A program made the position numbers and the translations under genes. Positions 25,095 to 59,857 of a stretch of 64,000 bases of DNA are shown in pieces. The stretch covers positions 1 through 64,000 of the forward strand of contig JAADIO010000055.1 in the NCBI GenBank assembly GCA_013151235.1, written 5' to 3'. The number at the start of each line of letters is the position of its first letter. Position 1 is the stretch's first letter. The notes beneath the pieces are model-generated. The model was not told where the DNA came from and did no database searches. It worked only from the letters and a program-made list of their open reading frames with translations. Origin of the DNA: Deltaproteobacteria bacterium (GTDB lineage: Bacteria; CG2-30-53-67).

Positions 25095-25277
25095 TGATGA
25101 AGTCGTAAAAAGTCGTTTTCCGGATTCCGTTCATGGTTCGACAGGCTACCGAGCATGGTGAGCCGGCCGAACCACACGAACGGAATATCAATCACTTACA
25201 CCGTTCGCCCTGAGCGGGCCTGTCCTGAGCCGGCCGAAGGGTCGAAGGGCTTCGTGACTTTTTACGAGACCATCATA
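25095..25277 (+). mobile_element. MITE-like element, copy A (183 bp)
   Basis: It begins TGATGAAGTCGTAAAAAGTC and ends GACTTTTTACGAGACCATCA, inverted repeats of about 20 bp. The flanking target duplication is TATA on both sides (25091-25094 and 25278-25281). The interior holds palindromic stretches with TTCGACAGGCT and CCTGAGC...CGAAGGG text and no gene. It lies about 60 bp upstream of the amt sigma-54 promoter. Apart from this, the 24926-25400 gap holds only the promoter and the terminator at 25332. Confidence 0.88.
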
Positions 25278-25331
25278 TATGGTCTTTTTCATTTCTCTTC
25301 GGACAGCGTGCCGATGGGTGATTAAACGCTG

Positions 25332-25357
25332 AAAAAACAGGCAGCTGCCTGTTTTTT
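25332..25357. terminator. Bidirectional intrinsic terminator after the PBP1A gene
   Basis: A 26-bp perfect palindrome: A6 CAGGCAG CTGCCTG T6, with stem core CAGGCAG/CTGCCTG flanked by A and T runs on both sides. It lies 44 bases beyond the stop codon of the minus-strand PBP1A gene and can work in either direction. Confidence 0.85.
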
Positions 25358-25400
25358 AGACAACGATGGATTCTCTCGTTACAAAAAAACAGGAAACAAA

Positions 25401-27872
25401 TTACAGCGTCCCCGTTCCGCTTCGTCCGGTTGCAGGAGCGGGATTCTCCGGAGGGGGAGCCGGTTGCAACCCCTTGGAATCCATATCAAAAAAATTGGTC
25501 CCCTGCGTCTTTTTGACCGGGGCATATTCATGAGGTTCCCGGCCGGTTCTGAAACACTCGAAATAGGTTTTTTCTCCGCCGGAAGGAAGCAACCCCGTTT
25601 TCTTGTCCACCCGCACGAAGATCACACCCGGCGGTACGGTAAAGGGGAGTTTCTCCCGCCCCTTCAGGGCATCCTTCATAAAGTCAAGCCAGATGGGACC
25701 GGCAGCCCTGGCTCCGAACTCGCCCTTCCCGAGGGTACGCATATCGTCAAACCCGACCCAGACCGCCGTGACCAGGTTCGGGACAAAACCAACATAGAGT
25801 GCATCCAGATAATTGTTGGTTGTCCCCGTTTTTCCTGCTGAGGGACGTCCCAACTTCTGCATCCGTCGCCCCGTTCCGTGACGGACGACTTCCTCAAGCA
25901 TATCCGTGACGATGTAAGCCGTTTCAGGATCCATTGCCTTCTCCACGGAAGGGTGGTTCTCCCGAATCACATTTCCATCATAATCGAGGATTCGGCGGAT
26001 AAAATAGGGCCGAGCCCGCATCCCATGATTATCATAAACCGAATAGGCCGAAGCCAGTTCGGACAGCGAGAGGACCGACGACCCCAGCGCCAGGGAATAG
26101 TCTTTGGCCAGGGGACTTTCAATACCGAGTTTCCGGGCAAATCTTACCACGTTCCGGATGCCCACCTTCTGCAGAAGCTTCACCGTCACCACATTCCGGG
26201 ACTTGGCCAGGGCCACGCGAAGCCGGGTCGGACCGTAAAACCGCTCGCTGTAATTGGCGGGTTTCCATTTCGTCTCCATGGAGGGATCCTGGAAAATCAC
26301 CGGCGTATCAATGATCACGGTCGCCGGAGAAAATCCCTTCTCCATGGCCGCTCCATAAATAATCGGTTTGAAGGCCGAACCGGGCTGCCGCTTGGCTTGA
26401 ATGGCCCGGTTGAATTCGCTCTTTTTGAAATCGTAGCCGCCGACCATGGCCTTGACCTCTCCGGTGGCGGGATCAATCGCGATCAGCGCCCCCTGTACCT
26501 GCGGCTCCTGCTCCAGCGCCAGCCGGTAGGCACCCAGTTTGGAATCATAGGAGAGGATGCGCACCAGGATCCGGTCTCCGGGAACGACGACATCCAGAAC
26601 ATTCTCCGGTTCGACCCAACGGACCCCGTCCGGATTGTCCGGCGTTGGATCCTTTACAGCACGTTTGGCCCACTTCATTTCATCAAACGGAAGAAATCCC
26701 AGCTCTCCTTCAACCCAGACCCAAGCCTCTTTCTTGTTGGCTTCCACCACAAGACCGTCATAAATCTTCCCGGACGGCAAGGACTCCGATCCTTCACTCG
26801 CTTGATCGTTCAACCGGGATTGGACATCCCAGTCCAGGGTATCAAGTTCGATATGTTCCAGCGGTCCTCGATAACCGTGACGTTTATCATAGGCCCGCAG
26901 TCCCTCCTGAACGGCCTTCACGGCGGCCCGTTGCATCGGCAGGTTCAGGGTCGTATACACATTGAGACCGCTCTCGTAAAGCCGGCTGCTGCCGTACTGG
27001 TCAAGAAGATAACGACGTACATGTTCCACAAAATAGGCCGAATCATTATGCTCCTCCTCCTTCTGCCGAAGCTTCAGGGGTTCCGCCTTCGCCTCTTCCA
27101 TCTGTGCACGTGTGATGAAATGTTCTGCAAACATTCTCGTAAGTACAAGGGAGCGACGCGCCTTCGATTCATCCGGATGTTTGAACGGATTGAAACGTCC
27201 CGGCGACTTGGGAAGGGCCGCCAGAGTCGCCATCTCAGACAACCGGAGTTTCTCCACAGGTTTATCAAAATAGGTCTCCGAGGCCGCTTCAACTCCGTAG
27301 GCACCGGCGCCGAAATAGATCTGATTCAGATACAGCTCCAGAATTTCGTCTTTGGAAAACCGTTTTTCAATCTCCAGGGCCAGGATCACCTCCTTGATCT
27401 TCCGCTCAATCTTCCGTTCCGGAGAGAGAAAGAGTGTCTTGGCCAACTGTTGCGTAATCGTACTTCCCCCCTGGGTGATCTGTTTTGCCCGAAGGTCCGC
27501 CCAGAAAGCCCGGGTGATCCCCTGCAGATCGATCCCATGATGATGATAGAAACGGGCATCCTCGATGGCAATGAACGCCTTGACGAGCAGATCGGGGATC
27601 TCGTTCAGGGGACGGAGCACTCTCTTTTCGATATAGAACTTTCCGACCACATCCCCGCCGTCGGAATAGACCGTGGTCACCAGGCTCGGCCGATAGTCCT
27701 TGAGAACAGAGACGTCGGGAAGGCCCCGCTGAAATTTAAGATAGAAGTGAAATCCCACCGCCCCGCCGACCAGGATCAGGAGAAAGATGAAGACCAGCAT
27801 CACGGTCAGGCAAGAACGAAGAGGAAAACGTCTTTTGGGGAAATTGTGAGAGGGCGGAAAAGATTCTTTCAT
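25401..27872 (-). CDS. mrcA: Penicillin-binding protein 1A, bifunctional transglycosylase/transpeptidase
   Basis: 823 residues. One N-terminal membrane helix (about 18-45). The GT51 transglycosylase domain has EDARFYHHHGIDLQGI, QGGSTITQQLAKTLFL and RKIKEVILALEIEKRFSKDEILELYLN. A beta insert of the PBP1A OB-like type is followed by the transpeptidase with SxxK in RQPGSAFKPIIY, the SRN motif in LAKSRNVV and KTGTTNNYLDALYVGF. It polymerises and cross-links peptidoglycan at the inner membrane. Start ATG at 27872 overlaps the stop of the upstream zinc-ribbon gene by 4 bases, so the two are translationally coupled. The length is typical. Confidence 0.95.
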   Translation of the reverse strand: MKESFPPSHNFPKRRFPLRSCLTVMLVFIFLLILVGGAVGFHFYLKFQRGLPDVSVLKDYRPSLVTTVYSDGGDVVGKFYIEKRVLRPLNEIPDLLVKAFIAIEDARFYHHHGIDLQGITRAFWADLRAKQITQGGSTITQQLAKTLFLSPERKIERKIKEVILALEIEKRFSKDEILELYLNQIYFGAGAYGVEAASETYFDKPVEKLRLSEMATLAALPKSPGRFNPFKHPDESKARRSLVLTRMFAEHFITRAQMEEAKAEPLKLRQKEEEHNDSAYFVEHVRRYLLDQYGSSRLYESGLNVYTTLNLPMQRAAVKAVQEGLRAYDKRHGYRGPLEHIELDTLDWDVQSRLNDQASEGSESLPSGKIYDGLVVEANKKEAWVWVEGELGFLPFDEMKWAKRAVKDPTPDNPDGVRWVEPENVLDVVVPGDRILVRILSYDSKLGAYRLALEQEPQVQGALIAIDPATGEVKAMVGGYDFKKSEFNRAIQAKRQPGSAFKPIIYGAAMEKGFSPATVIIDTPVIFQDPSMETKWKPANYSERFYGPTRLRVALAKSRNVVTVKLLQKVGIRNVVRFARKLGIESPLAKDYSLALGSSVLSLSELASAYSVYDNHGMRARPYFIRRILDYDGNVIRENHPSVEKAMDPETAYIVTDMLEEVVRHGTGRRMQKLGRPSAGKTGTTNNYLDALYVGFVPNLVTAVWVGFDDMRTLGKGEFGARAAGPIWLDFMKDALKGREKLPFTVPPGVIFVRVDKKTGLLPSGGEKTYFECFRTGREPHEYAPVKKTQGTNFFDMDSKGLQPAPPPENPAPATGRSGTGTL

Positions 27873-28285
27873 GAGAGCGCCAACCGATATCCCAGAAGAG
27901 CCGAAAATAGAAGAACCACAAAAATGAGCGCATACAGAAGAGAGAGGGGCAAGGGACTCTTATCCGGATGGCCGAAGGCCAGGCTTTCCTTCTCCGCCCC
28001 GTCGAGTATTTCACAGGCGGGACATAGAGGACGCTCAGCAGAGGGAACTTCGCGTTCCAACAAATGCCCGCAGGCAATGCAGTAATGATACGGGGAAACA
28101 GATGGGGATGAAACCTGAGAGATTGCACCGGGAAGTCCCTTTCCAGCCCCCGACGTCTCCTTCTTCCGGAGCCGAATCCGAAGAACGGCGCCGCACTTCC
28201 GGCACTTTGCCCGGATCCCCTCTTCCGTCAGATACTCTTTCCTGACCCGGTACTCTTTCCCGCACTGTTTGCAATGTATACGCAT
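27869..28285 (-). CDS. Zinc-ribbon membrane protein coupled to PBP1A
   Basis: About 138 residues from the ATG at 28285 (after AGGTGG). Two zinc-binding modules are visible. The first is MJ0042-like (MRIHCKQCGKEYRVRK...GIRAKCRKCGAVLRI) and the second is a CxxC...CPAC pair (YCIACGHLL...LCPACEIL). A single membrane helix is at the C-terminus (SLLYALIFVVLLFSALLGY). The protein should sit on the cytoplasmic face. It overlaps the PBP1A start by 4 bases, which suggests linked expression. Its exact job is unknown. Confidence 0.75.
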   Translation of the reverse strand: MRIHCKQCGKEYRVRKEYLTEEGIRAKCRKCGAVLRIRLRKKETSGAGKGLPGAISQVSSPSVSPYHYCIACGHLLEREVPSAERPLCPACEILDGAEKESLAFGHPDKSPLPLSLLYALIFVVLLFSALLGYRLALS

Positions 28286-28486
28286 TTTAACCACCTGCAA
28301 AATCCGAAAAGGGAGGGAAAAATGGTGTCATTATACTGAACTCATTGGACAAAGACAAACAAAAAGAAGGCCCAAATCCAGCGATAGAAAAGTTCGGAGC
28401 GTTTGTCGAAAAAGCTCGTTTTTAAACAGTAACCGTTGACGGGGGTCGGCACAAATCCGGACATCGATTTCCCTCTCATCTTGTAA

Positions 28487-28800
28487 CCCTGTGTTTTCGT
28501 TCATTTTCTTTGCTCGTCCAAAGAAAACGAACCAAAAGAAAAGACGCCCCGGGTCACTGGATCCCGCTGACGCGGGATTCCCCTGCGCTTCTCGAAAGCC
28601 TGCCCTGAGCATGCCGAAGGGGAGAGGGGGGCTCGATAACATGCTCCGCATGGTCGCGCCGAAGGCGCGACACGATCTCGCCCTTTTCCCCTCTCCTTCT
28701 GCGATGCTCGGCTGCGTGACAGGGGGGATGCTCCCCCTCTGGGGGAGTCAGGTGCGCGGATCCCCCTTCTTGTTTCTTTTGTTTTACCTTACAGCTGTGT
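28487..28800. repeat. Interspersed low-information repeat region
   Basis: Contains the hairpin TTTTCTTTG-CTCGTC-CAAAGAAAA (28504-28527) and the phrase GGATCCCGCTGACGCGGGAT, then long G/C palindromic stretches. This text style is widespread between genes in many proteobacterial genomes. The gap 28301-28948 has no supported gene. A weak AAAACC...GGTTTT hairpin is near 28822-28840. Confidence 0.5.
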
Positions 28801-28948
28801 CGTTAACTCACCATAAACCTTAAAACCAAGAGGGGTTTTTTCCCGGGTGAAACTCCTATCGCTAATTTAGGGAAGGTTCCTCCCCGGGGGCTCCATAGTC
28901 AATGTTTTTCGGTTTTGATCTTCAAAGACGTTCATGGTATAAGGTTTC

Positions 28949-30034
28949 ATGGACCGGATGCAACAGATCGGACAGCTCTTTGTCTGCGGTTTCGAAGGGA
29001 TCCGCCCGAATGGGACGATCCTTCGGCTGATCCGGGAGTACGGGATCGGCGGGGTGATCCTCTTTTCCCGGAACATCGAAACACCCCGTCAGACGGCGGA
29101 ACTGGTACAGGAACTCCAGGCAGCCGCCAAGATCCCCCTCTTCATCGGGATCGATCAAGAAGGGGGACGGGTCTCCCGGCTTCCCTCCCCTTTCACCCGG
29201 TTCCCTGGAAATGACGCCCTTGGACGGACCGCTTCCGGAAGACTGGCCTGCCGGTTCGGCCGCGCCGTGGGGAAGGAACTGGCTGTGGTGGGAATCAATC
29301 TCGACTTCGCCCCCGTCCTCGACATCAACACCCGTCCCGACAACCCGGTGATCGGAACCCGTGCCTTCGGCAGCGATCCGACGATCGTCTCGGACCTCGG
29401 CTGTGCCGTCATCGACGGACTGCAAAAGGAAATCATCGCCTGCGGCAAGCATTTCCCCGGCCACGGCGACACCTCTCTCGACTCGCACCTAACCCTCCCC
29501 GAAGTCCCTCACGGGATCGATCTCCTGCGCCGGCGGGAGCTGATCCCCTTCATCCGGGCCGTCGCCTGCGGTGTGGAATCAATCATGACGGCCCATGTCC
29601 TCTACCGGCCGATCGACCCGGATTATCCGGCCACACTTTCCCCCAAGATCGTGCAGGGAATCCTCCGCAAGGAACTCCATTTCAATGGGGTCGTCTTTTC
29701 CGATGACCTGGAGATGAAGGCCGTGGAGGATCATTTCGGGATCGAAACCTCGTCGATCCTTGCGCTGCAGGCCGGAGTCGATTCCCTCCTGATCTGCCAT
29801 CATCCGGAGAAACAGGAAAAGGCGATCGAGGCGGTGACCCGCTCCGTGGAAGAGGGAGCGATTTCTCTTTCCCGGATCGAGGAATCGGCGGGACGGATCC
29901 TTGATCTCAAGAGACGTCGGCTGTCGCCGAAACCTTCGATCGACTTCACTGAAGCGGAAGAGACCGCGGGATGGCCGGAACACCGAAAACTGGCGGAAGA
30001 AATCGAGCGCCCGCAGGGTGGAAAAGGATCGTGA
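28949..30034 (+). CDS. nagZ: Beta-N-acetylhexosaminidase, GH3
   Basis: 361 residues. NagZ removes GlcNAc from anhydro-MurNAc peptides during cell-wall recycling in the cytoplasm. The GH3 NagZ signatures are FIGIDQEGGRVSRL, the catalytic His/Asp motif KHFPGHGDTSLDSH (167-180), and the nucleophile Asp252 in FSDDLEM. No signal peptide. The start ATG has AAGG in its leader. The gene converges on the glutamate-cysteine ligase gene, 13 bases apart. The tail after RILDLKRRR is unconserved. Confidence 0.93.
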   Translation: MDRMQQIGQLFVCGFEGIRPNGTILRLIREYGIGGVILFSRNIETPRQTAELVQELQAAAKIPLFIGIDQEGGRVSRLPSPFTRFPGNDALGRTASGRLACRFGRAVGKELAVVGINLDFAPVLDINTRPDNPVIGTRAFGSDPTIVSDLGCAVIDGLQKEIIACGKHFPGHGDTSLDSHLTLPEVPHGIDLLRRRELIPFIRAVACGVESIMTAHVLYRPIDPDYPATLSPKIVQGILRKELHFNGVVFSDDLEMKAVEDHFGIETSSILALQAGVDSLLICHHPEKQEKAIEAVTRSVEEGAISLSRIEESAGRILDLKRRRLSPKPSIDFTEAEETAGWPEHRKLAEEIERPQGGKGS

Positions 30035-30047
30035 GGCCCGGCCCCAT

Positions 30048-31403
30048 TCAGGCCGGGGAGACAAGAGACGACTGAAAGAAGGAACTCTCCTTGACCAGAC
30101 GATGCAGGTCGTGACCGGACTGATCCCATTTTTCCAGAAGGACCTCCGCCGGGCACTTCCCCGCCCCCAGGATCAGCTCTTCGAGCGGCCCGAGCAGTTG
30201 GACCTCCTCGCCCAGCCGGGAAAGCCCCTCCCGTGCAATCCGTACCAGTTCCCGGGCCAGATCGAGAAGAAGCGTCCCCCGGATCTTTGCATGCAGCCCC
30301 AGGCGGCAGACCGATGCATGCAGTTGCCTCCGCTCCGAAAAGGACCAGTCCCGCACTAATTCCCAGGCAGCCTTCCGGGCGCCGTCATCATAGAGGATCC
30401 CCATCCAGAAGGCCGGCACCGTTATCACCATCCCCGGCGCCTGCCCGTCCACACCCCGGATCTCCAGGTACTGCTTCAGACGGACCTCCGGGAAGAGGGT
30501 ACTCTGATGGAGATCCCAATCCTCCCGGATGGCATGAAAACCCTCAACCCCCTTTTTGAGATACTCTCCGAAAGGGATACCCTTCATCGGGATCCACTCC
30601 CCCTCCCGGATGATGAACAACATCGGCACTGCCAGCGCGTAGTGAAGATAATCCTCAAAGGCGGCGTCCTCCCCGAAGGCAAAAGGGAGGAGACCGCATC
30701 GGTCCGGATCGGTATGCATCCAGACATGCTCCCGCATCGTCATAAAACCGTTCGGCCGTCCGCCGGAAAGGGGGGAGTTGGCATACATGGCCGAGACGAT
30801 GGAGGTGATCCCCATGGCCGTCCGGAACTTCTCCATGGCATCTTCCTCACTGGTGTAGTCGAGGTTGACCTGAACGGTGGCGGTCTCCTTCATCATGGTG
30901 TGCGCCAGGCGTCCCTGCTTTTCCAGGTAGGGCGCCATGATGCCGTAGCGGCACTTGTTCACAAAGGGGATCTCATCGGCCCGGCTCACGGGGTGCATCC
31001 CGGCGCCGATAAAATCGACGGCAAGGTCCTCCGTTACCCGGCGAAGCTGTGTCACGTATGAAGAGAGCTCATCCCGGACCCCGCCAAGACCGGGAGAAGG
31101 CTTCCCGGAGAGTTCGAGCTGCCCCCCCGGTTCGAGGGTGATGTTGGAGCCGTTCGCCCCGAGAAGACAGATCAGTTCCCCCCCTTCACACTGGGGACCC
31201 CACTGCGGTTCTTCCAGCAACCGGTCCAGGATGAGATGAACCCCCGGCACCCCGTTGTAGCCGACCGCACGAGCCGAATCCGGATCGACGCCGAGAAGTT
31301 CGAACTCTCCCCCGATGGAAAGACGGGCCGGATCCTTGCACCCCTCCCGAAAATAACGGGACAGGTCATCAAGAGTAATGCGTCGTGATTCAGTCACCAC
31401 CAT
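30048..31403 (-). CDS. Glutamate-cysteine ligase, plant-type (GCS2)
   Basis: 451 residues. It joins glutamate and cysteine by a gamma-peptide bond with ATP, the first step of glutathione synthesis. The plant-type family shows as IGGEFELL..., QCEGGELICLLGANGSNITLEPGGQLELSG, MMKETATVQVNLDY and MREHVWMHTDPDR. It is not related in layout to the E. coli GshA type. The gene is divergent from gshB across 134 bases, so the two steps lie side by side. The start at 31403 is the first ATG in frame. Confidence 0.92.
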   Translation of the reverse strand: MVVTESRRITLDDLSRYFREGCKDPARLSIGGEFELLGVDPDSARAVGYNGVPGVHLILDRLLEEPQWGPQCEGGELICLLGANGSNITLEPGGQLELSGKPSPGLGGVRDELSSYVTQLRRVTEDLAVDFIGAGMHPVSRADEIPFVNKCRYGIMAPYLEKQGRLAHTMMKETATVQVNLDYTSEEDAMEKFRTAMGITSIVSAMYANSPLSGGRPNGFMTMREHVWMHTDPDRCGLLPFAFGEDAAFEDYLHYALAVPMLFIIREGEWIPMKGIPFGEYLKKGVEGFHAIREDWDLHQSTLFPEVRLKQYLEIRGVDGQAPGMVITVPAFWMGILYDDGARKAAWELVRDWSFSERRQLHASVCRLGLHAKIRGTLLLDLARELVRIAREGLSRLGEEVQLLGPLEELILGAGKCPAEVLLEKWDQSGHDLHRLVKESSFFQSSLVSPA

Positions 31404-31447
31404 CGAGGTTCCTCCGGGGTTTGCCGTTGACGACAGCCCCGATCATT

Positions 31448-31478
31448 TGTTAAAGTTATTCAAAGTTCGTATTATAAT
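31448..31478 (+). promoter_or_regulatory. Candidate promoter of gshB
   Basis: A perfect -10 TATAAT (31473-31478) has only a weak -35 (TTGTTA at 31448, 19-base spacer). It sits in the 134-base divergent gap between the glutamate-cysteine ligase gene and gshB. Confidence 0.4.
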
Positions 31479-31537
31479 TCTGAAAGGCCTCTCTGTCATC
31501 CGAAAAGAAAGCCTTCCTGTCATAACAAAGGAAGTCA

Positions 31538-32506
31538 ATGGCGGCGCTGAAAATCGGCTTTATCATCGACCCCATAGAGACGATCCGCCCCGACGAGGAC
31601 TCTACCTACCTCTTCATGCTGGAGGCACAACGCCGGGGGCACGAGATCTTCTACATGACCGTTCCCGACCTCTTCATGAAGGGAAACCGTCCGGGCGCCT
31701 CGGGCGTCCGGCTGGAAGTCTTCCGAGACAAAGAATACTACCGTCTCGGGAAAAAGAAGACCCTCGACCTGAACGGGTTCGACATTCTCTTCATGCGAAA
31801 GGACCCCCCCTTCAACCTCGAGTACTATACGGCTACGCTGATCCTGGAACGGGTCAATCCATCCACACTGGTCATCAACGACCCGAAGGGACTTCGAAAC
31901 AACAATGAAAAAGCAAGTACGCTCCGTTTCCCCGGGCTGACCCCCGAAACACTGATTACCCATCGAATCGATCAGTTGCAGCGTTTCCTTGACGACGTGG
32001 GTGGTGAGATGATCGTCAAGTCCCTCTTTCGATCCTACGGAAGGGAGGTCCTCTACGTCAACCGGGAAGGGATGAACTGCAACACCCTGCTCGAGATGGC
32101 CACACGGGACGAGACCCGTTTCGTCATGGCCCAGCGCTACCTCTACGAGGCGGCCGACGGGGACAAGCGGATCATTCTGTTAAACGGCGAGCCGGTCGGC
32201 GCCGTCCTCTGGCTCCCGCCGGAGAAATACGGGGACAAGCCCCCCATCCGGACCCCCTGGCGGGAGGTCAAGACGGAACTGACGGAACGGGAACGGTTCG
32301 TCTGTGAGACCATCGCTCCCCACCTGAAAGAGAACGGCCTCTATTTTGCGGGAATCGATATGATCGGAGGCTACCTGACGGAGATCAATATCACCAGTCC
32401 CACATGCCTTCATGAAATCAACCGGCTCAACCATGTTCATCTCGAGGAAAAGGTGATTGATTTTGCGGAAGAGGAACAAAGGCGCAGGGCAGCATCCGGA
32501 AGATAG
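31538..32506 (+). CDS. gshB: Glutathione synthetase, with a divergent ATP-binding loop
   Basis: 322 residues. It adds glycine to gamma-glutamylcysteine with ATP, in the cytoplasm. Family marks are present: FMRKDPPFNLEYYTATLIL, NDPKGLRNNNEK and GIDMIGGYLTEINITSPTCLHEIN. The ATP-grasp glycine-rich loop that usually reads KPLDGxGGxxIF is KSLFRSYGREVLYV (161-174), so most of its glycines are replaced. The start ATG follows AAAGGAAG. A divergent gene next door encodes the preceding step, which supports the assignment. The altered loop may affect ATP closure or specificity. Confidence 0.88.
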   Translation: MAALKIGFIIDPIETIRPDEDSTYLFMLEAQRRGHEIFYMTVPDLFMKGNRPGASGVRLEVFRDKEYYRLGKKKTLDLNGFDILFMRKDPPFNLEYYTATLILERVNPSTLVINDPKGLRNNNEKASTLRFPGLTPETLITHRIDQLQRFLDDVGGEMIVKSLFRSYGREVLYVNREGMNCNTLLEMATRDETRFVMAQRYLYEAADGDKRIILLNGEPVGAVLWLPPEKYGDKPPIRTPWREVKTELTERERFVCETIAPHLKENGLYFAGIDMIGGYLTEINITSPTCLHEINRLNHVHLEEKVIDFAEEEQRRRAASGR

Positions 32507-32530
32507 GCGGGGAACACCCCGTACGGGCCG

Positions 32531-33259
32531 TCACCCCGGCTGCATACTCCGGGCAGCCTCCCCGACCAGCGCCTTGATGATCTTTGCTTTTCCGTCTCCC
32601 TCCCCCGCGATCAATTCGGGGTGCCACTGCACCCCCAGGGCAAAGCGATGACGACCGCTTTCGATCCCCTCAACCACCCCGTCTTCGGCCCGGGCATTGA
32701 CGATCAACCCTTCTCCCAGCTTCCGGACCGACTGGTGATGGGAACTGTTGACAGGGAGCCGGGGCCTTCCGACGATGGATGAGAGGAGCGTACCGGAAAC
32801 CACTTCAATCGTATGGAGCGGGTCTTGCTCCTTCTTCCTTTCATGGTTCATCGCACCTGCAACCTGTTCGAGAATATCCTGATAGAGACTCCCCCCGAAA
32901 AGAACGTTCAAGAGCTGTTCGCCGCCGCAGATCCCGAGGAGGGGAAGATCCGCCACCAGCGCCAGCCGGGTGATCTCCATCTCAAAGGCGGTCCGTCGAT
33001 CCTTGACCTTCCCTTCGGTGACCGACCAGACTTCTCCGTAGAGAACGGGATCGATATCGAAGGCGCCGCCGGTGACGATCAGGCCGTCGATCCGGTCGAC
33101 CAGGCGGGGGACCTCCCCGGTGGAGACATAAGGAAGGATCAGGGGAATCCCGCCGGCCTCTTCCACGGCCGTCACATACCGCTCGTAGAGAAAGTATCCT
33201 CCTGCCTTCTTTTCTCCCCGCTCCTCAAAATCGGGGGTGATCCCGATGGCCGGTTTCAT
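32531..33259 (-). CDS. Gamma-glutamyl hydrolase/amidotransferase, peptidase C26 family (PuuD-like)
   Basis: 242 residues. Class I glutamine amidotransferase fold with nucleophile Cys111 in LLGICGGEQLLNVLFGG and the His213-Glu215 pair in GVQWHPEL. Family members cleave gamma-glutamyl bonds, for example in gamma-glutamyl-GABA. The start overlaps the upstream D-aminoacylase gene by 4 bases (ATGA). It is the last gene of the nagA-slt-aminoacylase operon. Possible roles are hydrolysis of gamma-D-glutamyl links in muropeptides or of glutathione-related peptides, since gshB is next door. The substrate is not readable. Confidence 0.88.
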   Translation of the reverse strand: MKPAIGITPDFEERGEKKAGGYFLYERYVTAVEEAGGIPLILPYVSTGEVPRLVDRIDGLIVTGGAFDIDPVLYGEVWSVTEGKVKDRRTAFEMEITRLALVADLPLLGICGGEQLLNVLFGGSLYQDILEQVAGAMNHERKKEQDPLHTIEVVSGTLLSSIVGRPRLPVNSSHHQSVRKLGEGLIVNARAEDGVVEGIESGRHRFALGVQWHPELIAGEGDGKAKIIKALVGEAARSMQPG

Positions 33260-36981: not shown

Positions 36982-36996
36982 CTTCCCCGATCTTCT

Positions 36997-47892: not shown

Positions 47893-47924
47893 GAGAGACA
47901 GCGTCCTTTCCGGTTGAGAGGTTG

Positions 47925-47960: not shown

Positions 47961-48236
47961 TTGGGGGAGGTGTGAGATGGGTACTTGATGAGAAATTTGG
48001 AAACCGGAAGTTTCCCTTCCCCTCAAGGGTCCATGTCCTCTTCTCCTTTTCCTCTTTCCATTAGAGCAAATCCCATGCCAAGGGGGAACCCACTCCGAGG
48101 AGAAGACACCCGGACGATCTTACCGAAACGATGAATTTCTCCGTTCTTCAGAATGTTACAGGAGAATGGCAAGGAGGTGGACAAAAGAAAAAGAAGCGCA
48201 AAGGAATTCCTCTGTTCCAAAAACGAATGCGGGGAA

Positions 48237-48273
48237 GGGAGAAATTACCCCGGTGATTGCGGTAATTTTTCCC
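48237..48273. other. Long inverted repeat between metF and the substrate-binding protein gene
   Basis: Arms 48237-48249 (GGGAGAAATTACC) and 48261-48273 (GGTAATTTTTCCC) pair over 13 bp with one G-T, around an 11-base loop. It lies about 100 bases before the ATG at 48372. The rest of the 47893-48371 gap has no gene that I can support. Confidence 0.5.
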
Positions 48274-48371
48274 AGTCCATTTCCCGGCCGAAGGCCATTC
48301 GCAATCCGCTCCGCTTTATGTTAGAGTACTTTTCGGAAGAGAAACAACAATCACCGTAAACAAGGGAAACC

Positions 48372-49325: not shown

Positions 49326-49340
49326 ACAAGGAGATCGACG

Positions 49341-49928
49341 ATGACGGAAAAGAAAAAACCGCTGCCCCGACCACCCCGAAAAGGCTTCGGACCGAGAAGG
49401 GGACCTGACACCGAAGGACCGTTGAGTGCCGACAAGATGGCAGCAGCCATGGCACAGGGAAAGCTCGAAGAATACCTGTCACAGGAATTCCAGGGGAATG
49501 AACAGGCGCAAAACCTGGCAAAGATGATGATGGGGATGACGGGAATGTCCGGGATGATGCCGTCCGGCGGGTCCGTCGGTAGTATCCCGCCGGCCGGCGG
49601 AGATCCCGCTGGCCCTCCGGAAGTCCCCGAGGATATCCGGCAGGCCTCTCTCACCGGCGACATGGGACAGCTCATGACCCTGATGAAACAGGAGCACGAA
49701 AAACGCTCCGGCGGTGAACAAAAAGCGGGTGAGGAAGCCCCCACGAAAAAAAGTCCCGATAACGAAAAGGCATCGGCACCCTCGGCGGAAGCCCCGGCCC
49801 TTCTCGACCGGGAGTCAATCGACCTTTTGATCCGGATTGCCTCGGAAAACAGCGTCTCCCTCGACTGGGTCATCGCCCGGGCCATCAAGCTCTATGCTCG
49901 GGATTACAAACTCACCGGCAGGGTCTGA
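49341..49928 (+). CDS. Met/Gly/Pro-rich protein, unknown function
   Basis: 195 residues with AAGGAG 9 bases before the ATG. The central stretch is low-complexity (MMMGMTGMSGMMPSGGSVGS), followed by Pro/Gly runs and a charged region. A C-terminal helix (DLLIRIASENSVSLDWVIARAIKLYARDY) could be a small folded unit, with no domain that I know. The reverse strand also has an open frame here, but it has no ribosome-binding site and the plus-strand gene follows the substrate-binding gene at 15 bases. Function is unknown. Confidence 0.65.
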   Translation: MTEKKKPLPRPPRKGFGPRRGPDTEGPLSADKMAAAMAQGKLEEYLSQEFQGNEQAQNLAKMMMGMTGMSGMMPSGGSVGSIPPAGGDPAGPPEVPEDIRQASLTGDMGQLMTLMKQEHEKRSGGEQKAGEEAPTKKSPDNEKASAPSAEAPALLDRESIDLLIRIASENSVSLDWVIARAIKLYARDYKLTGRV

Positions 49929-50011
49929 AAACAAAAGGGGAAACCAAATATATTCAAGAACTTGCTGTGGTCCGACCCTAACCCCAGACTACCCAGTAAA
50001 ACGAGAGGTTG

Positions 50012-51499: not shown

Positions 51500-52048
51500 G
51501 AAGATGGGGTTCTCCCTGCGGAAAAAGCTTGGGTGTCAGAACTTAATGGGCTGTTGCTCAAACACATTTGACATTTTTGAAGATGGCTATTCCGCCGAAG
51601 GGCACACTCCATAATATCTTCATAAACCGCCGCACCTAACAAGACCTGCCTGACTTTCTCTTCTGGTCAGCAAAAAAGATCCACACGTTAAAACCCAAAA
51701 GGTGTTTTGGCAACGCTTCCGGGAGAACATCTAACAGGGTTACCGGAATAACCATTAACGATATGAGTAACAATTCCCGTGGGGATTGTAAAGGAAATTT
51801 TAGCGCAAAAGAAAAAGCCGCCCTCCGGTGGGGAGTAACTTCCAGGAAGATTAGGGGACGTTCCTGATTACGCTGACTTATTCCTGACAAACTTTTCTCA
51901 ACGAATCGTCGGGACCTCCTTTGGAAGACCGCTGCAGGTCCGAGGAAAGACCTCCCGGCCTGCTCTAACCTGATTTAAACATTGATTTTCCATTCATTTT
52001 ATATTATTTTAAAGAAATTGTAATTCTGGAGAAAGGAACCCAAAAAAA
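51500..52048. other. Non-coding gap of about 550 bases
   Basis: An AT-rich stretch between the divergent membrane protein gene and hemX. Short open frames in it have no ribosome-binding signal or recognisable protein. A promoter for the hem cluster must lie near its right end, where AT-rich text (TTTTATATTATTTTAAAG, 51996-52013) is found, but no clear -35 can be placed. No RNA structure stands out. Confidence 0.5.
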
Positions 52049-52861
52049 ATGATACTCAAGGTTGCCCTTGCGGTCTATCTGTTATCCACCATCTTCTGTC
52101 TTGTCTATTTCGTTTCTCCCCGGAAGTCCCTGGCAACGGCTTATCTGGCCAGCGCGGTCGCAGGTTTTCTCATCCATACATGGGTCCTGATCGAAAGCTA
52201 TCTTCAAGCAGGGCACATCCCTGTGACCAACCTGAAGGAGGGGCTGTCCTTTTTCTCCTGGACGATTATCCTGATTTTCCTGATCATTGAATACCGCTAC
52301 AAGATCCTGATTCTCGGTTCCTTCATTATTCCCCCGGCTTTTATAGCTCTCCTCTACCCGGCATTGGCGGGTGACAGAATCACGGCGCTGGCGCCACTTC
52401 TGCAGAGTTCCTGGTTAGGGGTCCATGTGACCCTGGCCTTCCTCGGGGATGCGTCCTTTGCCCTGGCCACGGCCCTGAGTGTCATGTATATCCTTCAGGA
52501 ACGCCAACTAAAATCCCACAAGTTCGGCGCCACCTTTCGCAAGCTCCCATCCCTGGAGGTTCTCGATTTGATCAATCACCGGATTATGACCATCGGTTTT
52601 CTTCTCCTGACGCTCGGCATCATTACCGGAGCCCTCTGGGCCCGGGCGGCATTAGGGAGCTACATACAGGGGGATCCCAGGGAAATCTGGTCCCTGATCA
52701 CCTGGGTGATCTATGCCGGCCTCGTGCATTCCCGACTGACCATCGGATGGCGGGGCCGTAAATCAGCAATCCTGACGATCGTGGGATTTTGCGTGCTGAT
52801 CTTCGCCTTTCTGGCCATCAATACCTTCATTCCAAGTTATCATTATCCGGGGCGTTTCTGA
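52049..52861 (+). CDS. CcsA/HemX-type cytochrome assembly protein
   Basis: 270 residues, 8 hydrophobic helices. The second half has GDPREIWSLITWVIYAGLVHSRLTIGWRG, which resembles CcsA/CcsB heme-handling proteins. The usual WG-x-x-W-x-W-D motif is lost (ALGSYIQGDPREIWS), which fits the HemX branch next to hemA. HemX lowers glutamyl-tRNA reductase level in Bacillus. Start at 52049 after GGAGAAAGGAA. The stop overlaps the hemA start by 1 base (TGATG), so translation is coupled. Confidence 0.82.
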   Translation: MILKVALAVYLLSTIFCLVYFVSPRKSLATAYLASAVAGFLIHTWVLIESYLQAGHIPVTNLKEGLSFFSWTIILIFLIIEYRYKILILGSFIIPPAFIALLYPALAGDRITALAPLLQSSWLGVHVTLAFLGDASFALATALSVMYILQERQLKSHKFGATFRKLPSLEVLDLINHRIMTIGFLLLTLGIITGALWARAALGSYIQGDPREIWSLITWVIYAGLVHSRLTIGWRGRKSAILTIVGFCVLIFAFLAINTFIPSYHYPGRF

Positions 52862-54150
52862 TGGGCATCTTCCTGGTAGGACTGAGTCACAAAACGGCGC
52901 CCGTGGAATTGCGGGAGAAGATCTCCTTTGCCGAAGAGACGATCCCGCAAGGACTGGAAAAGCTTCGGGCGGAGTCGATCCCGGAAAACATCATCCTCTC
53001 CACTTGCAACCGGGTCGAGATCATCGCTCAATGCGAGGACTGCGTCAAAGGGATTTCAGCCACGAAAGATTTCCTGTCCGGCGAACACCAGATCCCCCTC
53101 GATGAACTGGAGCCTCATCTCTATATCCGGGAAGGCAATGAGGCAATCCGCCATATCTTCCGTGTCGCTTCCTCGCTTGACTCCATGATGGTCGGGGAGC
53201 CCCAGATCCTCGGGCAGTTCAAGAATGCCTTCACGATCGCCTCGGAGGCCAAGGCGACGGGAATCATCCTGAATCGGCTCATGCACAAGGCCTTCTCCGT
53301 GGCAAAAAGGATCAAGACCGAGACGGGGATCGCCCGAAGCGCCGTTTCCATCAGTTACGCCGCCGTGGAACTGGCCAAGAAGATTTTCGACGATCTGACG
53401 GACAAGACCGTCATGCTCATCGGAGCCGGGGAGATGTGCGAACTGGCGGCCAAACACCTGATGCAAAACGGCGCGAAAAAAATGCTCGTCACCAACCGGA
53501 CCTACAGCCGCGCCGTGGAACTGGCACAGGAGTTCAACGGGAGCGCCATCCGTTTTGAAAATTTCATCGAATCACTGATCCAGACGGACATCATCATCTC
53601 CTCCACCGGGGCGCCGCACTATATCCTGCACCACCACGATGTAAAAGAGGTGATTCACGAACGGAGGAACAAGCCGATCTTCATGATCGATATCGCCGTC
53701 CCCCGTGACCTTGATCCGGAAATCAACAAGATCGACAATGTCTACCTCTACGATATCGACAATCTCCAGGCCGTCGTTGAAACCAACATCGAAGAGCGGA
53801 AGAAGGAAGCGGAAAAGGCCGACAGCATCGTCACGCAGGAGGTCCGGACCTTCGAACAATGGCTCGCCTCCCTGAAGGTCACACCGATGATCGTCCTTCT
53901 CCGGGAACGGATGGAGCAGATCCGGCAGGAAGAACTCCGAAAGACCCTGCCCCGCCTGAACGGAATCTCGGAGAAGGAGAAGAGGTCGATTGAATCGATG
54001 TCGATGGCGATCATCAATAAGGTTCTTCACGGCCCGATGAAAGCCTTGAAGTCGTGTCACCCGGAAGAAAAAGAAACGCTCATGCAGGTGTTGCGGGAGA
54101 TCTTCCAGTTGGAAGACTCTCCCCGAAAGATCGGGGAAAAAGATCGTTAA
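52861..54150 (+). CDS. hemA: Glutamyl-tRNA reductase
   Basis: 429 residues from the ATG at 52861. Reduces glutamyl-tRNA to glutamate-1-semialdehyde with NADPH, the first step of C5 tetrapyrrole synthesis. Cys49 (STCNRVEII) is the catalytic thiol. GLSHKTAPVELREK, SLDSMMVGEPQILGQFK and the NADPH fold GAGEMCELAAKHL are conserved. C-terminal helices form the dimer. The longer frame from 52789 has no support because it would read through hemX. Coupled to hemX upstream. HemC follows 32 bases downstream. Confidence 0.96.
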   Translation: MGIFLVGLSHKTAPVELREKISFAEETIPQGLEKLRAESIPENIILSTCNRVEIIAQCEDCVKGISATKDFLSGEHQIPLDELEPHLYIREGNEAIRHIFRVASSLDSMMVGEPQILGQFKNAFTIASEAKATGIILNRLMHKAFSVAKRIKTETGIARSAVSISYAAVELAKKIFDDLTDKTVMLIGAGEMCELAAKHLMQNGAKKMLVTNRTYSRAVELAQEFNGSAIRFENFIESLIQTDIIISSTGAPHYILHHHDVKEVIHERRNKPIFMIDIAVPRDLDPEINKIDNVYLYDIDNLQAVVETNIEERKKEAEKADSIVTQEVRTFEQWLASLKVTPMIVLLRERMEQIRQEELRKTLPRLNGISEKEKRSIESMSMAIINKVLHGPMKALKSCHPEEKETLMQVLREIFQLEDSPRKIGEKDR

Positions 54151-54182
54151 CCGTGGTATACACTCCATTGTAAGGGAAGAAG

Positions 54183-55115
54183 ATGACAAACTCAAAGGAA
54201 GTCCGTATCGGCACACGTGGAAGTCAGCTTGCACTCTGGCAGGCCAACTGGATCAAATCGACGCTCGAGGCCCGGCATCCCGACCTTGTGGTCTCTTTGG
54301 TGAAGATCAAGACCACGGGAGACAAGATCCTCGATGTCCCCCTGGCCCAGGTCGGCGGCAAAGGACTCTTCGTCAAGGAGATCGAAGAGGCAATGCTTGA
54401 CGGAAGGATCGACCTGGCCGTCCACAGCATGAAGGATGTCCCCACCGACCTTCCCGGTCCGCTCCACCTGCCGGTGATCGCCGAACGTGAAGATCCGAGG
54501 GACGCCCTCTTGTCGCACGGCAAAGTGTTCGATGACCTGCCGCAGGGGGCGAAGATCGGTACGAGCAGCCTGCGGCGTCAGGCCCAGCTCCTCCACCGGC
54601 GTCCCGATATGGAGATGATCTCCCTCCGGGGGAACCTCGACACCCGGATCAGGAAGCTCGACACGGAAGGGCTCGATGCCGTCATTCTCGCCGCGGCGGG
54701 AATCCGCAGGATGGGCTGGGCGGAGAAGATCACCCAGATCCTGCCGACGGAAATCTCTCTGCCCGCCATCGGGCAGGGGGCCGTGGGGATCGAATGCCGC
54801 CGGGAGGATCCCCGCATCAATGACCTGATCGCCTTCATCCGTCATGATGATACCTTCGATGCCGTGGTGGCGGAACGGGCCTTTTTAAAGAAACTTGAAG
54901 GGGGTTGCCAGGTCCCGATCGCCGCCTATGCCGAAGTCGACGGCAAAAATCTGAAACTCCGGGGTCTCGTCGGAAGCGTCGACGGCAAGGAACTGATCGA
55001 AGACAAAATCGACGGGCTCCGTACGGACGGCGCCCGTCTCGGCACCGAATTGGGAGAACGGGTCCTCGCTGCCGGCGCCGGCCGGATCCTCGAAGAGGTT
55101 TACAAAAATCAGTAA
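54183..55115 (+). CDS. hemC: Hydroxymethylbilane synthase (porphobilinogen deaminase)
   Basis: 310 residues. Condenses four porphobilinogens to hydroxymethylbilane. The dipyrromethane cofactor is attached to Cys242 (LEGGCQVPIAAY). N-terminal IGTRGSQLALWQA, DLAVHSMKDVP and the RGNLDTRIRKL segment are as expected. Start ATG after AGGGAAGA. It lies 32 bases after hemA and 63 before cobA/hemD. Confidence 0.96.
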   Translation: MTNSKEVRIGTRGSQLALWQANWIKSTLEARHPDLVVSLVKIKTTGDKILDVPLAQVGGKGLFVKEIEEAMLDGRIDLAVHSMKDVPTDLPGPLHLPVIAEREDPRDALLSHGKVFDDLPQGAKIGTSSLRRQAQLLHRRPDMEMISLRGNLDTRIRKLDTEGLDAVILAAAGIRRMGWAEKITQILPTEISLPAIGQGAVGIECRREDPRINDLIAFIRHDDTFDAVVAERAFLKKLEGGCQVPIAAYAEVDGKNLKLRGLVGSVDGKELIEDKIDGLRTDGARLGTELGERVLAAGAGRILEEVYKNQ

Positions 55116-55178
55116 CCCCTTCATTGCAGGCTGTTGTTTTCCGGTCCCTCTTCGCGACAAGGAGGACACAGGAACATT

Positions 55179-56768
55179 ATGGATTGGACGGACAAAAAAT
55201 CCCCCCCGGCCCCTCTTTTACAAGGTGGAGAGAAATCATCCATCAAAGGAAAAGTCTTTCTCCTCGGCGCCGGTCCCGGCCACCCGAAGTTGATCACCCT
55301 CCGGGCGATCGAATGTATCCGGGATGCCGAGGTCATCATCTACGACTACCTGGCCAATCAGAAATTCCTTCAGTATGCCCCGAAGGGGTGCGAGATCATC
55401 TATGCCGGGAAGACGAGCGTTCACCATACCCTGCATCAGGATGAAATCAATCAGCTCCTCATCGACAAGGCCCGTACGGGAAAAACGGTGATCCGGCTCA
55501 AGGGGGGAGATCCCCTCCTTTACGGACGCGGCGGGGAAGAGGCGGAAGGACTCGCCCGGGAGGGGATCCCCTTCGAGATCGTCCCCGGCATCCCGGCGGC
55601 TACCGCCATTGCGGCCTATGCCGGGATCCCTCTGACCCACCGTGACTCAGCGTCTACGGTCGCCTTTATTACAGGGCACGAAGGATCGGGCAAGAGCGGC
55701 CCGCCCGTGGACTGGGAAAAGATCAGCACCGGCGTCGGCACGGTCGTCATCTACATGGGGGTCGGCAACCTGCAGGAAAATACCCGTAAACTCATGGAAC
55801 ACGGACGGGCGCCCGAAACCCCGACGGCCCTCGTCCGCTGGGGTACGACGCCGGAGCAGGAGATCCTCATCGGGACCCTGGCCGACATCTACGAGAAGGC
55901 CCGGACGGCACACTTCAAGGCCCCGGCCATCATGATCGTCGGCGAAACGGTCCGGCTCCACGACAAACTCCACTGGACCGATCAACTCCCCCTCTTCGGC
56001 CGCCGGATCGCCCTCACCCGGGAACGGGAGAACGCCGGACTCTTTTCCAAGGAACTGGAGCGGCTGGGGGCGGTGATCTACTACCTCCCCGCCATCAGCA
56101 TCTTTTCCCCGGAAGAGTTCGGGATCGTCGATCAGGCCATTGAAGAAATCGAACAGTTCGACTGGATCATATTTACGAGTGCCAACGCCGTCCGATATTT
56201 TCTTGATCGTCTGATCAAGAAGAATCGGGATGTGCGTGATCTGAAAGGGATTTCGATCTGCACCGTGGGGACCGCCACGGCCCGGTCTCTAAAAACCCGG
56301 GGGATACGGACCGACCTCATCCCCGAGGAGTTCACCGGGGAAGGCGTCGTTGCCGCCCTGCTGAAGGAGGGAGATCTTCCGGGGAAGCGGGTTCTGATCC
56401 CCAGGGCGGAAAAGGCGAGGGAAGTGGTCCCCGATGCCCTCCGGGAGGCAGGCGCCGAGGTCGTCGTGGCCACGGTCTACCGGAATCTTGCCCCGGAGAT
56501 TGACGCACAGGCACTCCAGGAGATCCTGATCAACCGCAAGGCAGACCTGATCGTCTTTACCAGTCCATCGAATATCAGAAATTTTGTCCGGTCCGTGCAG
56601 AAAGAAGGACTGCAGAAAACCCTGCCGGGAATCAGGACCGCATGCATCGGTCCGGTCACGGCAAAGGCGGCGAAAGAAGCCGGGCTCGATGTTGTCGTTG
56701 AACCGGAGAAATCGACACTCGAGTCGGTCTCTGAAGCGATCCGGAAATATTTCGCTGAAAAACAATGA
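55179..56768 (+). CDS. Uroporphyrinogen-III methyltransferase/synthase fusion
   Basis: 529 residues from the ATG at 55179 (AGGA upstream). The CobA-type methyltransferase (about 24-265) has VFLLGAGPGHPKLITLRAIECI, VIRLKGGDPLLYGRGGEE and PGIPAATAIAAYAGIPLTHR, and makes precorrin-2. The HemD-type synthase (about 270-520) has a classic two-lobed weak-sequence fold (IIFTSANAVRYFL, VFTSPSNIRNF), and makes uroporphyrinogen III. This is the cobA-hemD fusion of anaerobes. The stop codon is supplied by the first base triplet of MITE copy B at 56766. The first 20 residues (KKSPPAPLLQGGEKSS) look like repeat-coded sequence. Confidence 0.93.
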   Translation: MDWTDKKSPPAPLLQGGEKSSIKGKVFLLGAGPGHPKLITLRAIECIRDAEVIIYDYLANQKFLQYAPKGCEIIYAGKTSVHHTLHQDEINQLLIDKARTGKTVIRLKGGDPLLYGRGGEEAEGLAREGIPFEIVPGIPAATAIAAYAGIPLTHRDSASTVAFITGHEGSGKSGPPVDWEKISTGVGTVVIYMGVGNLQENTRKLMEHGRAPETPTALVRWGTTPEQEILIGTLADIYEKARTAHFKAPAIMIVGETVRLHDKLHWTDQLPLFGRRIALTRERENAGLFSKELERLGAVIYYLPAISIFSPEEFGIVDQAIEEIEQFDWIIFTSANAVRYFLDRLIKKNRDVRDLKGISICTVGTATARSLKTRGIRTDLIPEEFTGEGVVAALLKEGDLPGKRVLIPRAEKAREVVPDALREAGAEVVVATVYRNLAPEIDAQALQEILINRKADLIVFTSPSNIRNFVRSVQKEGLQKTLPGIRTACIGPVTAKAAKEAGLDVVVEPEKSTLESVSEAIRKYFAEKQ

Positions 56769-56926
56769 TGGTCTCGTAAAAAGTCGTTTTTCGGATTCCG
56801 TTCATGGTTCGACAGGCTTCCGAGCATGGTGAGCTTGCCGAACCACACGAACGGGGAATATCAAAGACTTACACCGTTCGCCCTGAGCGTGTCGAAGGGT
56901 CGAACGGACTTTTTACGAGTCCATCA
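56766..56926 (+). mobile_element. MITE-like element, copy B (161 bp)
   Basis: Begins TGATGGTCTCGTAAAAAGTC and ends GACTTTTTACGAGTCCATCA. The target duplication ACAA stands at 56762-56765 and 56927-56930. Same orientation as copy A. Its first three bases are the TGA stop of cobA/hemD. It lies between that gene and hemB, which begins 37 bases after the element. Confidence 0.9.
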
Positions 56927-56963
56927 ACAATCGAACCAGAAAATTTAAAAGGGAGATGCCATC

Positions 56964-57947
56964 ATGTTTTTCCCCAGCTACCGTCCGCGCCGGGTACGGA
57001 AAAATGAACAGATCCGAAGAATGGTCCGGGAGACCCGGCTCTCCGTGGACAACCTGATCTACCCCCTGTTCGCCATTCATGGCAAGAAGGTCAAAAATGA
57101 GATCCCTTCCATGCCGGGAAACTTCCAGCTCTCTGTGGAGAACCTCGTCCGGGAAGCCCGGACGGTCTACAAGCTCGGCATCCCGGCCGTCCTCCTCTTC
57201 GGGATTCCGAAGAGGAAAGATGCCGTCGGCTCCGGGGCCTACGACGAACACGGCATCATCCAAACCGCCGTCCGGTCGATCAAGGACAAGATCCCGGAGC
57301 TGATCGTGATCACGGATGTCTGTCTCTGCGAATATACCGATCACGGCCATTGCGGGATCGTCGAGAACGGCGAAATCCTGAACGACCCGACGCTGGAACT
57401 CCTCGCGAAGGAAGCGGTATCCCACGCCCGGGCCGGGGCCGACATCATCGCCCCTTCGGACATGATGGACGGCCGGGTCGGCGCCATCCGGGAGGCTCTC
57501 GATGAAGAAGGTTTTGATGACACACCGATCCTCTCCTATGCCGTCAAATATGCCTCCGGATTCTACGGTCCCTTCCGGGATGCAGCGGAATCGACACCCG
57601 GTTTCGGCGACCGCGCCTCTCACCAGATGGACCCGGCCAACACCCGTGAGGCCATGCGGGAGGCGGAGCTGGATGTCTCGGAAGGGGCGGACATGCTCAT
57701 GGTCAAACCAGCGCTTCCCTACCTCGACATCATCTACCGGGTGAAGGAGGAATTCGATCTGCCTGTGGCCGCCTACAACGTCTCCGGCGAATTCTCCATG
57801 ATCAAGGCCGCAGCAAAACAGGGGTGGCTCGACGAGAAACGGGTGATGATGGAATCGTTGATCTCGATCCGGCGGGCCGGCGCCGACATGATCCTCACCT
57901 ACTGGGCGAAGGATGCCGCAAAACTGCTTCAGAAACAGCAACCATAA
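56964..57947 (+). CDS. hemB: Delta-aminolevulinic acid dehydratase (porphobilinogen synthase)
   Basis: 327 residues. Joins two 5-aminolevulinates to porphobilinogen. Zinc ligands Cys120, Cys122 and Cys130 ([14 protein letters not shown]) are present, so it is the zinc type. The catalytic lysines are Lys195 ([17 protein letters not shown]) and Lys248 ([13 protein letters not shown]). Start ATG after GGGAG. The preceding gene ends at 56768 with MITE copy B in between, so hemB may have its own promoter or be transcribed through the element. Followed by a small membrane protein. Confidence 0.96.
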
Positions 57948-58002
57948 AAAAAGAAGACCGGAATCGCCGTTTCTGATAGAATAAAAGACGGGAGGAGGAC
58001 AA

Positions 58003-58269
58003 ATGTTCATTCGGCGATTTCATAGTGAAATCATCTTTCATCTCTTCAGCCTGATCTTTTTCGACCTGATCTATTTCATCGTCCTCATGTTGCTCCTGTT
58101 GCAGCATGAGGCGCTGTGGTTAGGCCTCGGGTCTCTTCTCGTCTTCGGCTACCTGCATCTCCGTTACTTCCGGAGTTTCTGCCGGGAGATCCGCTGGACC
58201 TACGTCACACCTCATCTTGTTTTCCCCTGCCTTTTGACGTTGGTCGCCTTTTTGACCTACGCGCCATGA
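58003..58269 (+). CDS. Small three-helix membrane protein, unknown function
   Basis: 88 residues with a good GGAGGAGG upstream of the ATG. Three hydrophobic helices (about 10-34, 36-55 and 67-85), with loops carrying Arg/His. I do not recognise a domain. It lies 55 bases after hemB and before hemL, within the tetrapyrrole cluster. A role in membrane anchoring or in a porphyrin step is possible but not supported by sequence. Confidence 0.6.
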   Translation: MFIRRFHSEIIFHLFSLIFFDLIYFIVLMLLLLQHEALWLGLGSLLVFGYLHLRYFRSFCREIRWTYVTPHLVFPCLLTLVAFLTYAP

Positions 58270-58329
58270 AACAGGGTTCAAACTGCTTAAACCATTCAAA
58301 CCGTTTAGAGAACAGACAGCCTCTTTCCA

Positions 58330-58358
58330 TTGACAGAACCTCCTGAAAATGTTACTAA
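58330..58358 (+). promoter_or_regulatory. Possible internal promoter of hemL
   Basis: TTGACA (58330-58335) with a -10 near TACTAA (58353-58358), 17-base spacer. The -10 is poor. The hemL ATG is 39 bases downstream. Confidence 0.4.
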
Positions 58359-58397
58359 TCTTCTCATTAATTCAGGGATTCAGAAGGAGAATCAGAC

Positions 58398-59678
58398 ATG
58401 TCGAACCGTTCCGAAGAACTCTTTGTCCAAGCACAGAAATTCATCCCCGGCGGGGTCAACAGCCCGGTGCGGGCCTTCAAGTCGGTGGGAGGCAGTCCCG
58501 TTTTCATCGACCGATCCGAAGGAAGCCGGATCTTCGATGTGGAGGGCCGGGCCTATATCGACTACATCGGTTCCTGGGGACCGATGATCGTGGGACATTC
58601 CCATCCACGGGTCGTCGAAGCCCTCAAAAAAGCCATCGACAAGGGGACGAGTTTCGGCGCTCCGACGGTGTTGGAGACCGAACTGGCGCAGAGGGTGATC
58701 CAGGCCGTCCCCTCCGTGGAAATGGTCCGGATGGTCAACTCCGGCACGGAGGCAACGATGAGCGCCATCCGGGTTGCCCGGGGCTATACCGGACGGGACA
58801 AGATCATCAAGTTCGAGGGGTGCTACCACGGCCATGCCGACGGCCTGCTCGTTAAGGCCGGCTCCGGCGCCGCCACCTTCGGAGTCCCGACCAGTCCCGG
58901 CGTCCCCGCTGATTATGCAAGGAACACTCTCACCGCCCCCTTCAACAATCTTGAGGCCGTGGAGAAGCTCATCGCCGAAGAGGGAGACGATATCGCCTGC
59001 ATCATCGTTGAGCCGTTGCCGGGAAACATGGGCGTCGTCCCCCCGAAGGCGGGTTTCCTGGAGGAACTCCGGAAGATCACGGCGGAAAAGGGGATCGTGC
59101 TGATCTTCGATGAAGTCATGTCCGGTTTCCGTGTCGCCTACGGCGGCGCCCAGGAACGCTTCGGGATTACACCCGATATGACGACCCTTGGAAAGGTGAT
59201 CGGCGGCGGACTTCCCGTCGGCGCCTACGGCGGGAAGAAGGAGATCATGGAACAGGTCTCTCCTTCCGGCCCGGTCTACCAGGCCGGGACCCTCTCGGGG
59301 AATCCTCTCGCCATGACGGCCGGAATCGAGACCCTGAAGATCCTCTCCGAACCGGGCGTCTACGACCAATTAGAGGAGAAATCGACGAAGCTCTGCAAGG
59401 GGATCCGGGAGGCCTTTGCGGAAGCCGGTGTTCCCGCCTTCCACACCCAGGTGGGTGCCATGTTCTGTACCTTCTTCAACAACGGGGAAGTGACCGACTA
59501 CACCTCGGCGGCCCGATCCGACACGGAACGGTTCGGGAAGTACTTCCATAACATGCTGGAACAGGGGATCAACCTGGCGCCGTCCCAGTTCGAAGCGGCC
59601 TTCATGTCTCTGGCCCACTCCGATGAGGATATTGCAAAGACAATCGACGCCTGCCGGAAGAGCTTACGGAAACTTTGA
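58398..59678 (+). CDS. hemL: Glutamate-1-semialdehyde 2,1-aminomutase
   Basis: 426 residues. Converts glutamate-1-semialdehyde to 5-aminolevulinate with PMP. Lys266 ([11 protein letters not shown]) is the PLP lysine; [33 protein letters not shown] and [14 protein letters not shown] are standard. AAGGAG is upstream of the ATG. The stop codon TGA (59676-59678) is the first triplet of MITE copy C. Before insertion it would have been TAA at the same place, so the protein is unchanged. Confidence 0.96.
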
Positions 59679-59857
59679 TGAAGTCGTAAAAAGTCACGAA
59701 GCCCTTCGACAGGCTCAGGACGAACGGTATAAGTGGTTGATATTCCGTTCGTGTGGTTCGGCGAGCTTCCGAGCATGGTGAGCTTGCCGAACCACATGCT
59801 CGGTAGCTTGTCGAACCATAAACGGAATCCGGAAAATGACTTTTTACGAGACCATCA
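59676..59857 (-). mobile_element. MITE-like element, copy C (182 bp)
   Basis: Starts TGATGAAGTCGTAAAAAGTC and ends GACTTTTTACGAGACCATCA. Target duplication ACTT stands at 59672-59675 and 59858-59861. The inner sequence is in the opposite orientation to copies A and B. It provides the TGA of hemL. The interior includes TTCGACAGGCTCAGGACGAA text. Confidence 0.9.

Follow-up and report, generated by a model that had tools for sequence, protein, structure and literature searches.

A non-coding MITE-like element with conserved inverted ends and 6- or 7-bp target duplications in a Deltaproteobacteria genome and in other Desulfobacterota

The window analyzed in this work comprises bases 1 to 64,000 of contig C55, base 1 being the first base of the contig, and belongs to a Deltaproteobacteria genome of 2.62 Mb (73 contigs, 99% complete) whose class and phylum are represented by only 8 genomes in the collection. 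A short repeat with inverted ends, referred to below as a MITE, is found in this window in three complete copies and one partial copy. The first complete copy lies between an ammonium transporter gene and a PBP1A-family gene, while the other two are placed in a heme-synthesis cluster with the gene order hemA, hemC, cobA-hemD, MITE copy 2, hemB, hemL and MITE copy 3. The corresponding features are as follows:

39-90, minus strand: part of a fourth MITE copy with the GTG end, broken at about 38/39, where another repeat (1-38) occupies the contig edge
23696-24925, minus strand: ammonium transporter gene, left of MITE copy 1
25090-25095 and 25275-25280: left and right target duplication ATATAT of copy 1
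25096-25274, plus strand: MITE copy 1, the element proper (GATG...CATC), with the AAG end on the left, the GTC end on the right and the interior in the consensus orientation
25401-27872, minus strand: PBP1A-family gene, right of MITE copy 1
55134-56768: cobA-hemD
56761-56766 and 56926-56931: left and right target duplication AACAAT of copy 2
56767-56925, plus strand: MITE copy 2, between cobA-hemD and hemB
56964-57947: hemB
58398-59678: hemL
59671-59676 and 59857-59862: left and right target duplication AACTTT of copy 3
59677-59856, minus strand: MITE copy 3, directly 3' of hemL, with the AAG end on the left, the GTC end on the right and the interior inverted relative to copy 1

The three complete copies that had been proposed in the initial annotation were confirmed at 25095-25275, 56766-56926 and 59676-59857, with inverted ends of about 19 bp, and 7 matches to the MITE ends were found in the window as compared with 0 in dinucleotide shuffles. 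Two further proposals were also borne out, namely that the interior occurs in either orientation, as copies 1 and 3 show directly, and that no transposase is coded, since the window copies (159-180 bp) are too short for one.

For the whole genome, a pattern search was carried out, the matching stretches were fetched and their ends were then paired. The 12-base end core TCGTAAAAAGTC was found 147 times, and the same core read backwards, used as a control, 0 times. Pairing yielded 61 copies with the inverted ends GATGNNNTCGTAAAAAGTC at both termini, together with 43 single ends, a good number of them lying right at a contig edge; roughly 60 to 100 places in the genome carry the MITE. The paired copies range from 80 to 329 bp (median 171 bp), most of them measuring 130-180 bp.

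An exact 6-bp duplication flanks 44 of the 61 pairs (mean of 1.2 and maximum of 7 with shuffled flanks), and a further 7 pairs display a duplication of 7 bp, the usual target being A-N4-T or A-N5-T. The 10 pairs devoid of a 6-7 bp duplication would be explained by decay, end mispairing or recombination. Originally, a 4-bp duplication had been assigned to each window copy (TATA, ACAA and ACTT), which corresponds to the inner four bases of the 6-bp sequences ATATAT, AACAAT and AACTTT. Of the 45 copies with matching inner four bases, 44 have the same base at position 5 before the element as at the right terminus (A-A in 40, T-T in 4), and the left terminal base is identical to base 5 after the element in all 45 (T-T in 39, A-A in 6). 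Because each terminal base varies in concert with the flank on the opposite side, the outer T/A is part of the duplication and not of the element, and a 4-bp target duplication was therefore rejected; the element proper is GATG...CATC, with its boundary one base inside the earlier repeat call. The genome-wide alignment of flanks that had been suggested as a check did provide many copies with duplications (the 61 pairs), but of 6-7 bp rather than 4 bp. As ATATAT is of low complexity, the duplication of copy 1, taken alone, carries little weight.

Evidence of an empty site was obtained for copy 2 (56766): its joined flanks align without insert in G001, a genome of the same genus, and in G004, a genome of the same family, while for G002 and G003 the evidence consists of loci that score against these joined flanks. 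The search for empty sites in relatives, likewise suggested in the initial annotation, was accordingly positive for one window copy out of three, and no such claim is made for copies 1 and 3, since in the relatives the flanking sequence is rearranged or diverges too far beyond the junction.

The MITE ends were also identified in the relatives G001, G002 and G004. In G001, a second subfamily of 153 bp displays the same ends, an unrelated interior and duplications of 6-7 bp (L124-L143, L367-L386), with several copies differing by 1-5 substitutions from the consensus and many located at contig edges; these near-identical copies suggest recent activity of the system within this genus. Among named genomes, a scan revealed at least 115 stretches with the ends. 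Among the matches listed, most titles correspond to metagenome-assembled genomes (MAGs) of Desulfobacterota/Deltaproteobacteria, with a few of Nitrospirae, Aminicenantes, Neomarinimicrobiota and unclassified bins, and binning errors may lie behind some of these host assignments. Also among the matches listed, 80 pairs were recognized, of which 45 show a duplication of 6 bp and 7 a duplication of 7 bp (52 of 80, with 1.7 expected); these duplications are of the A...T type in 50 of the 52 pairs, and lengths of 133 and 151-154 bp recur. The ends and the insertion rule are common to elements in many Desulfobacterota genomes.

Regarding the internal structure of the element in the source genome, the ends differ at positions 5-7 in most copies, with AAG at one end and GTC or GTG at the other. 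One AAG end is combined with one GTC/GTG end in 40 of the 61 copies, where random pairing would give 20.7; as a general rule, however, unequal ends were rejected, being strong in the source genome and failing across taxa. The orientation of the interior between the AAG and the GTC/GTG ends follows a 24:16 ratio, so that it is inverted in about 40% of these copies while the end asymmetry is kept, and the occurrence of both orientations would be accounted for if the interior were inverted between the perfect inner repeats. The interior constitutes a set of palindromes forming strong hairpins (folding z of -4.8, -7.3 and -8.0), and one inner hairpin of 28-38 bases resembles stretches without listed genes on Sphingobium, Comamonas and Moraxella plasmids (E 0.01-0.04). 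Apart from this short hairpin on plasmids, no MITE copies were found on phage or plasmid records.

These palindromic inner segments, one of them resembling plasmid stretches of distant bacteria, are a trait shared with REP sequences, and both the strong hairpins and the plasmid matches would favor regarding the repeats as extragenic palindromes or terminators, maintained for their effect on transcripts and not transposed. REPs are not known to carry target duplications or conserved transposon ends, whereas the MITE displays 6-7 bp duplications, an empty site and fixed, conserved ends, all of which oppose such an origin. A terminator function was rejected as well: in the region around copies 2 and 3 (56600-60000), terminator-like sites are no more common than in shuffles. 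We consider the palindrome or terminator explanation extremely improbable, and as the main account of the repeats it is refuted by the duplications together with the empty site, although the repeats may have a secondary effect on transcripts.

The repeats are very probably a MITE, which a transposase acting in trans would move with a stagger of 6 or 7 bases at A-N4/5-T. In the mechanism we propose, non-coding, hairpin-forming copies would be recognized in trans at their ends GATGNNNTCGTAAAAAGTC by a transposase, which would make a cut at A-N4/5-T, staggered by 6 or 7 bases, and join the element to the target there, and repair of the gaps would generate the 6-7 bp duplication. The staggered duplication and the inverted repeats point to a transposase of the DDE type, and this helper has presumably been lost from, or was not assembled in, the source genome.

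As a kind of element, such repeats are known. MITEs are non-autonomous derivatives of insertion sequences, in which only the ends need to match the partner (Kamoun et al., 2013, PMC3852290), and the repeats described here resemble them in being short, without an open reading frame, with inverted and direct repeats and in high copy number; on the other hand, here no autonomous partner was found and the interiors of the subfamilies are unrelated. A closer example is Chunjie from Geobacter uraniireducens Rf4 (Chen et al., 2008), described in PMC10969869 as a MITE of about 180-235 bp that is non-coding and has conserved terminal inverted repeats, direct repeats, and dozens of full and many partial copies, with a copy in an operon. 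The likeness, drawn from that description, lies in the non-coding nature, the inverted and direct repeats, the many copies and the presence of a copy within an operon. No title or abstract describing the present family (end core, Desulfobacteraceae/Desulf- MITEs) was found in the literature searched. It is an ordinary kind of element with a wide host range, and a family without earlier description in that literature. The present results provide a precise definition (ends, boundary and 6-7 bp A...T duplication) for an intergenic repeat that breaks assemblies in many Desulfobacterota MAGs, and raise the concrete question of which transposase moves it.

With respect to this helper, no transposase-coding element with MITE ends was found in the source genome, in the loci read from the sister genome G001, in the about 115 stretches of other carrier genomes among the matches listed, or, in 30 carrier genomes, in loci of the IS1634 family. 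Nor did the approximately 115 stretches (among the matches listed), 20 viral stretches or the G001 loci contain any long pair of ends that enclosed a transposase and had a matching duplication. The transposase with the same ends that the initial annotation advised looking for was consequently found neither in the source genome nor in the loci searched elsewhere, an absence that is weak evidence because these repeats break the assemblies. The two DDE_Tnp_1 transposases of the source genome (C20 and C28) were discarded as candidates, as no MITE ends occur within the fetched loci. Of the earlier proposal of a helper acting in trans, the non-autonomous nature of the MITE is well supported by the dispersed copies, the duplications, the empty site and the near-identical copies of the sister subfamily, but the helper itself was not found and its action in trans is what we infer.

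One candidate origin is an insertion sequence of the IS1634 family, its present or past helper, of which the MITE would be a deletion derivative. The remnant of an IS1634-family transposase lies within about 50 bp after a GTC-type end at C32:69127, and an 84-residue piece of this remnant displays 35-47% identity to annotated IS1634 transposases (best E 5e-8). However, no second MITE end was found beside the C32 remnant, and the source genome has no NCBIfam IS1634 match, the remnant itself being below NCBIfam detection. Furthermore, none of the IS1634 loci of relatives and of 30 carrier genomes has both MITE ends around the transposase, intact loci included, and at the one locus with a clear inverted-repeat pair identified de novo (L309) the ends are different and the duplication is of 4 bp. 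The remnant is weak evidence for the helper; the loci examined speak against IS1634 in this role, and we regard descent from this family as unlikely. The ISDol1 group of ISNCY, which was named from a Desulfobacterota host, generates duplications of 6-7 bp. The MITE could tentatively be assigned to another transposase family such as this one, a somewhat doubtful possibility suggested by the fit in duplication length, which is a resemblance and not a test.

The placement of copies 2 and 3 shows how a MITE can sit within a biosynthetic gene cluster, by providing a stop codon for the upstream gene. Copy 2 provides cobA-hemD with a TGA stop that lies 5 codons ahead of the native one; in the absence of the insert this gene would end in ...AAA CAA TCG AAC CAG AAA ATT TAA, and at the same site the gene of G001 ends in ...ATT TAG. 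In hemL, the duplication ends on the first base of the native TAA, and copy 3 turns TAA into TGA leaving the length unchanged. As the junction is normally T followed by GATG, an insertion can close an open frame with TGA, and would cost little where it lands at a gene's 3' end or close to it. Genome-wide, insertions exactly on a stop codon account for 4 of 36 non-interior insertions, the corresponding share of comparable ANNNNT sites being 2.0% (binomial P 0.006); this excess is suggestive only, because the crude gene caller used for the count placed 14 of 50 copies, including copy 2, inside called frames. A broader reading would be that of a Desulfobacterota-wide MITE superfamily in which the ends are constant and the interiors unrelated. 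Its target rule, A-N4/5-T with the element's own GA coming next, would bias the surviving copies to stop codons, where insertions would rebuild TGA nearly harmlessly, and the mover would be a transposase family that has so far not been connected with these ends. We consider this reading speculative and improbable.

Finally, several observations concern the contig edges. The fourth copy, initially called a truncated copy at 39-91, does contain a MITE part, but is not a simple truncation, being joined to the repeat at 1-38, and MITE copies are joined likewise to this repeat at other contig edges. This repeat, GATATGGTTGACAGTTGTCAAGAAAAAAAAGTACTCCTGCCCC (window 1-38; contig edges L070, L073, L082 and L097), joins the MITEs at one and the same inner position, after AGGCT or AAGCT, which suggests a multi-copy element inserting into the MITE hairpin. 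A different repeat, GACATAATGGCTGACAGTTGGCAAAAAAGTGCCTGCCCC, is found at five contig edges (L047, L076, L082, L107 and L112) joined to MITE interiors, the junction following CTGA or GTGA, as if it were a site-specific element targeting the MITE hairpin. Also near the contig edge, a match to the Rfam group II intron model D1-D4-4 (RF02003, 59.3 bits) lies at 275-397 on the minus strand.
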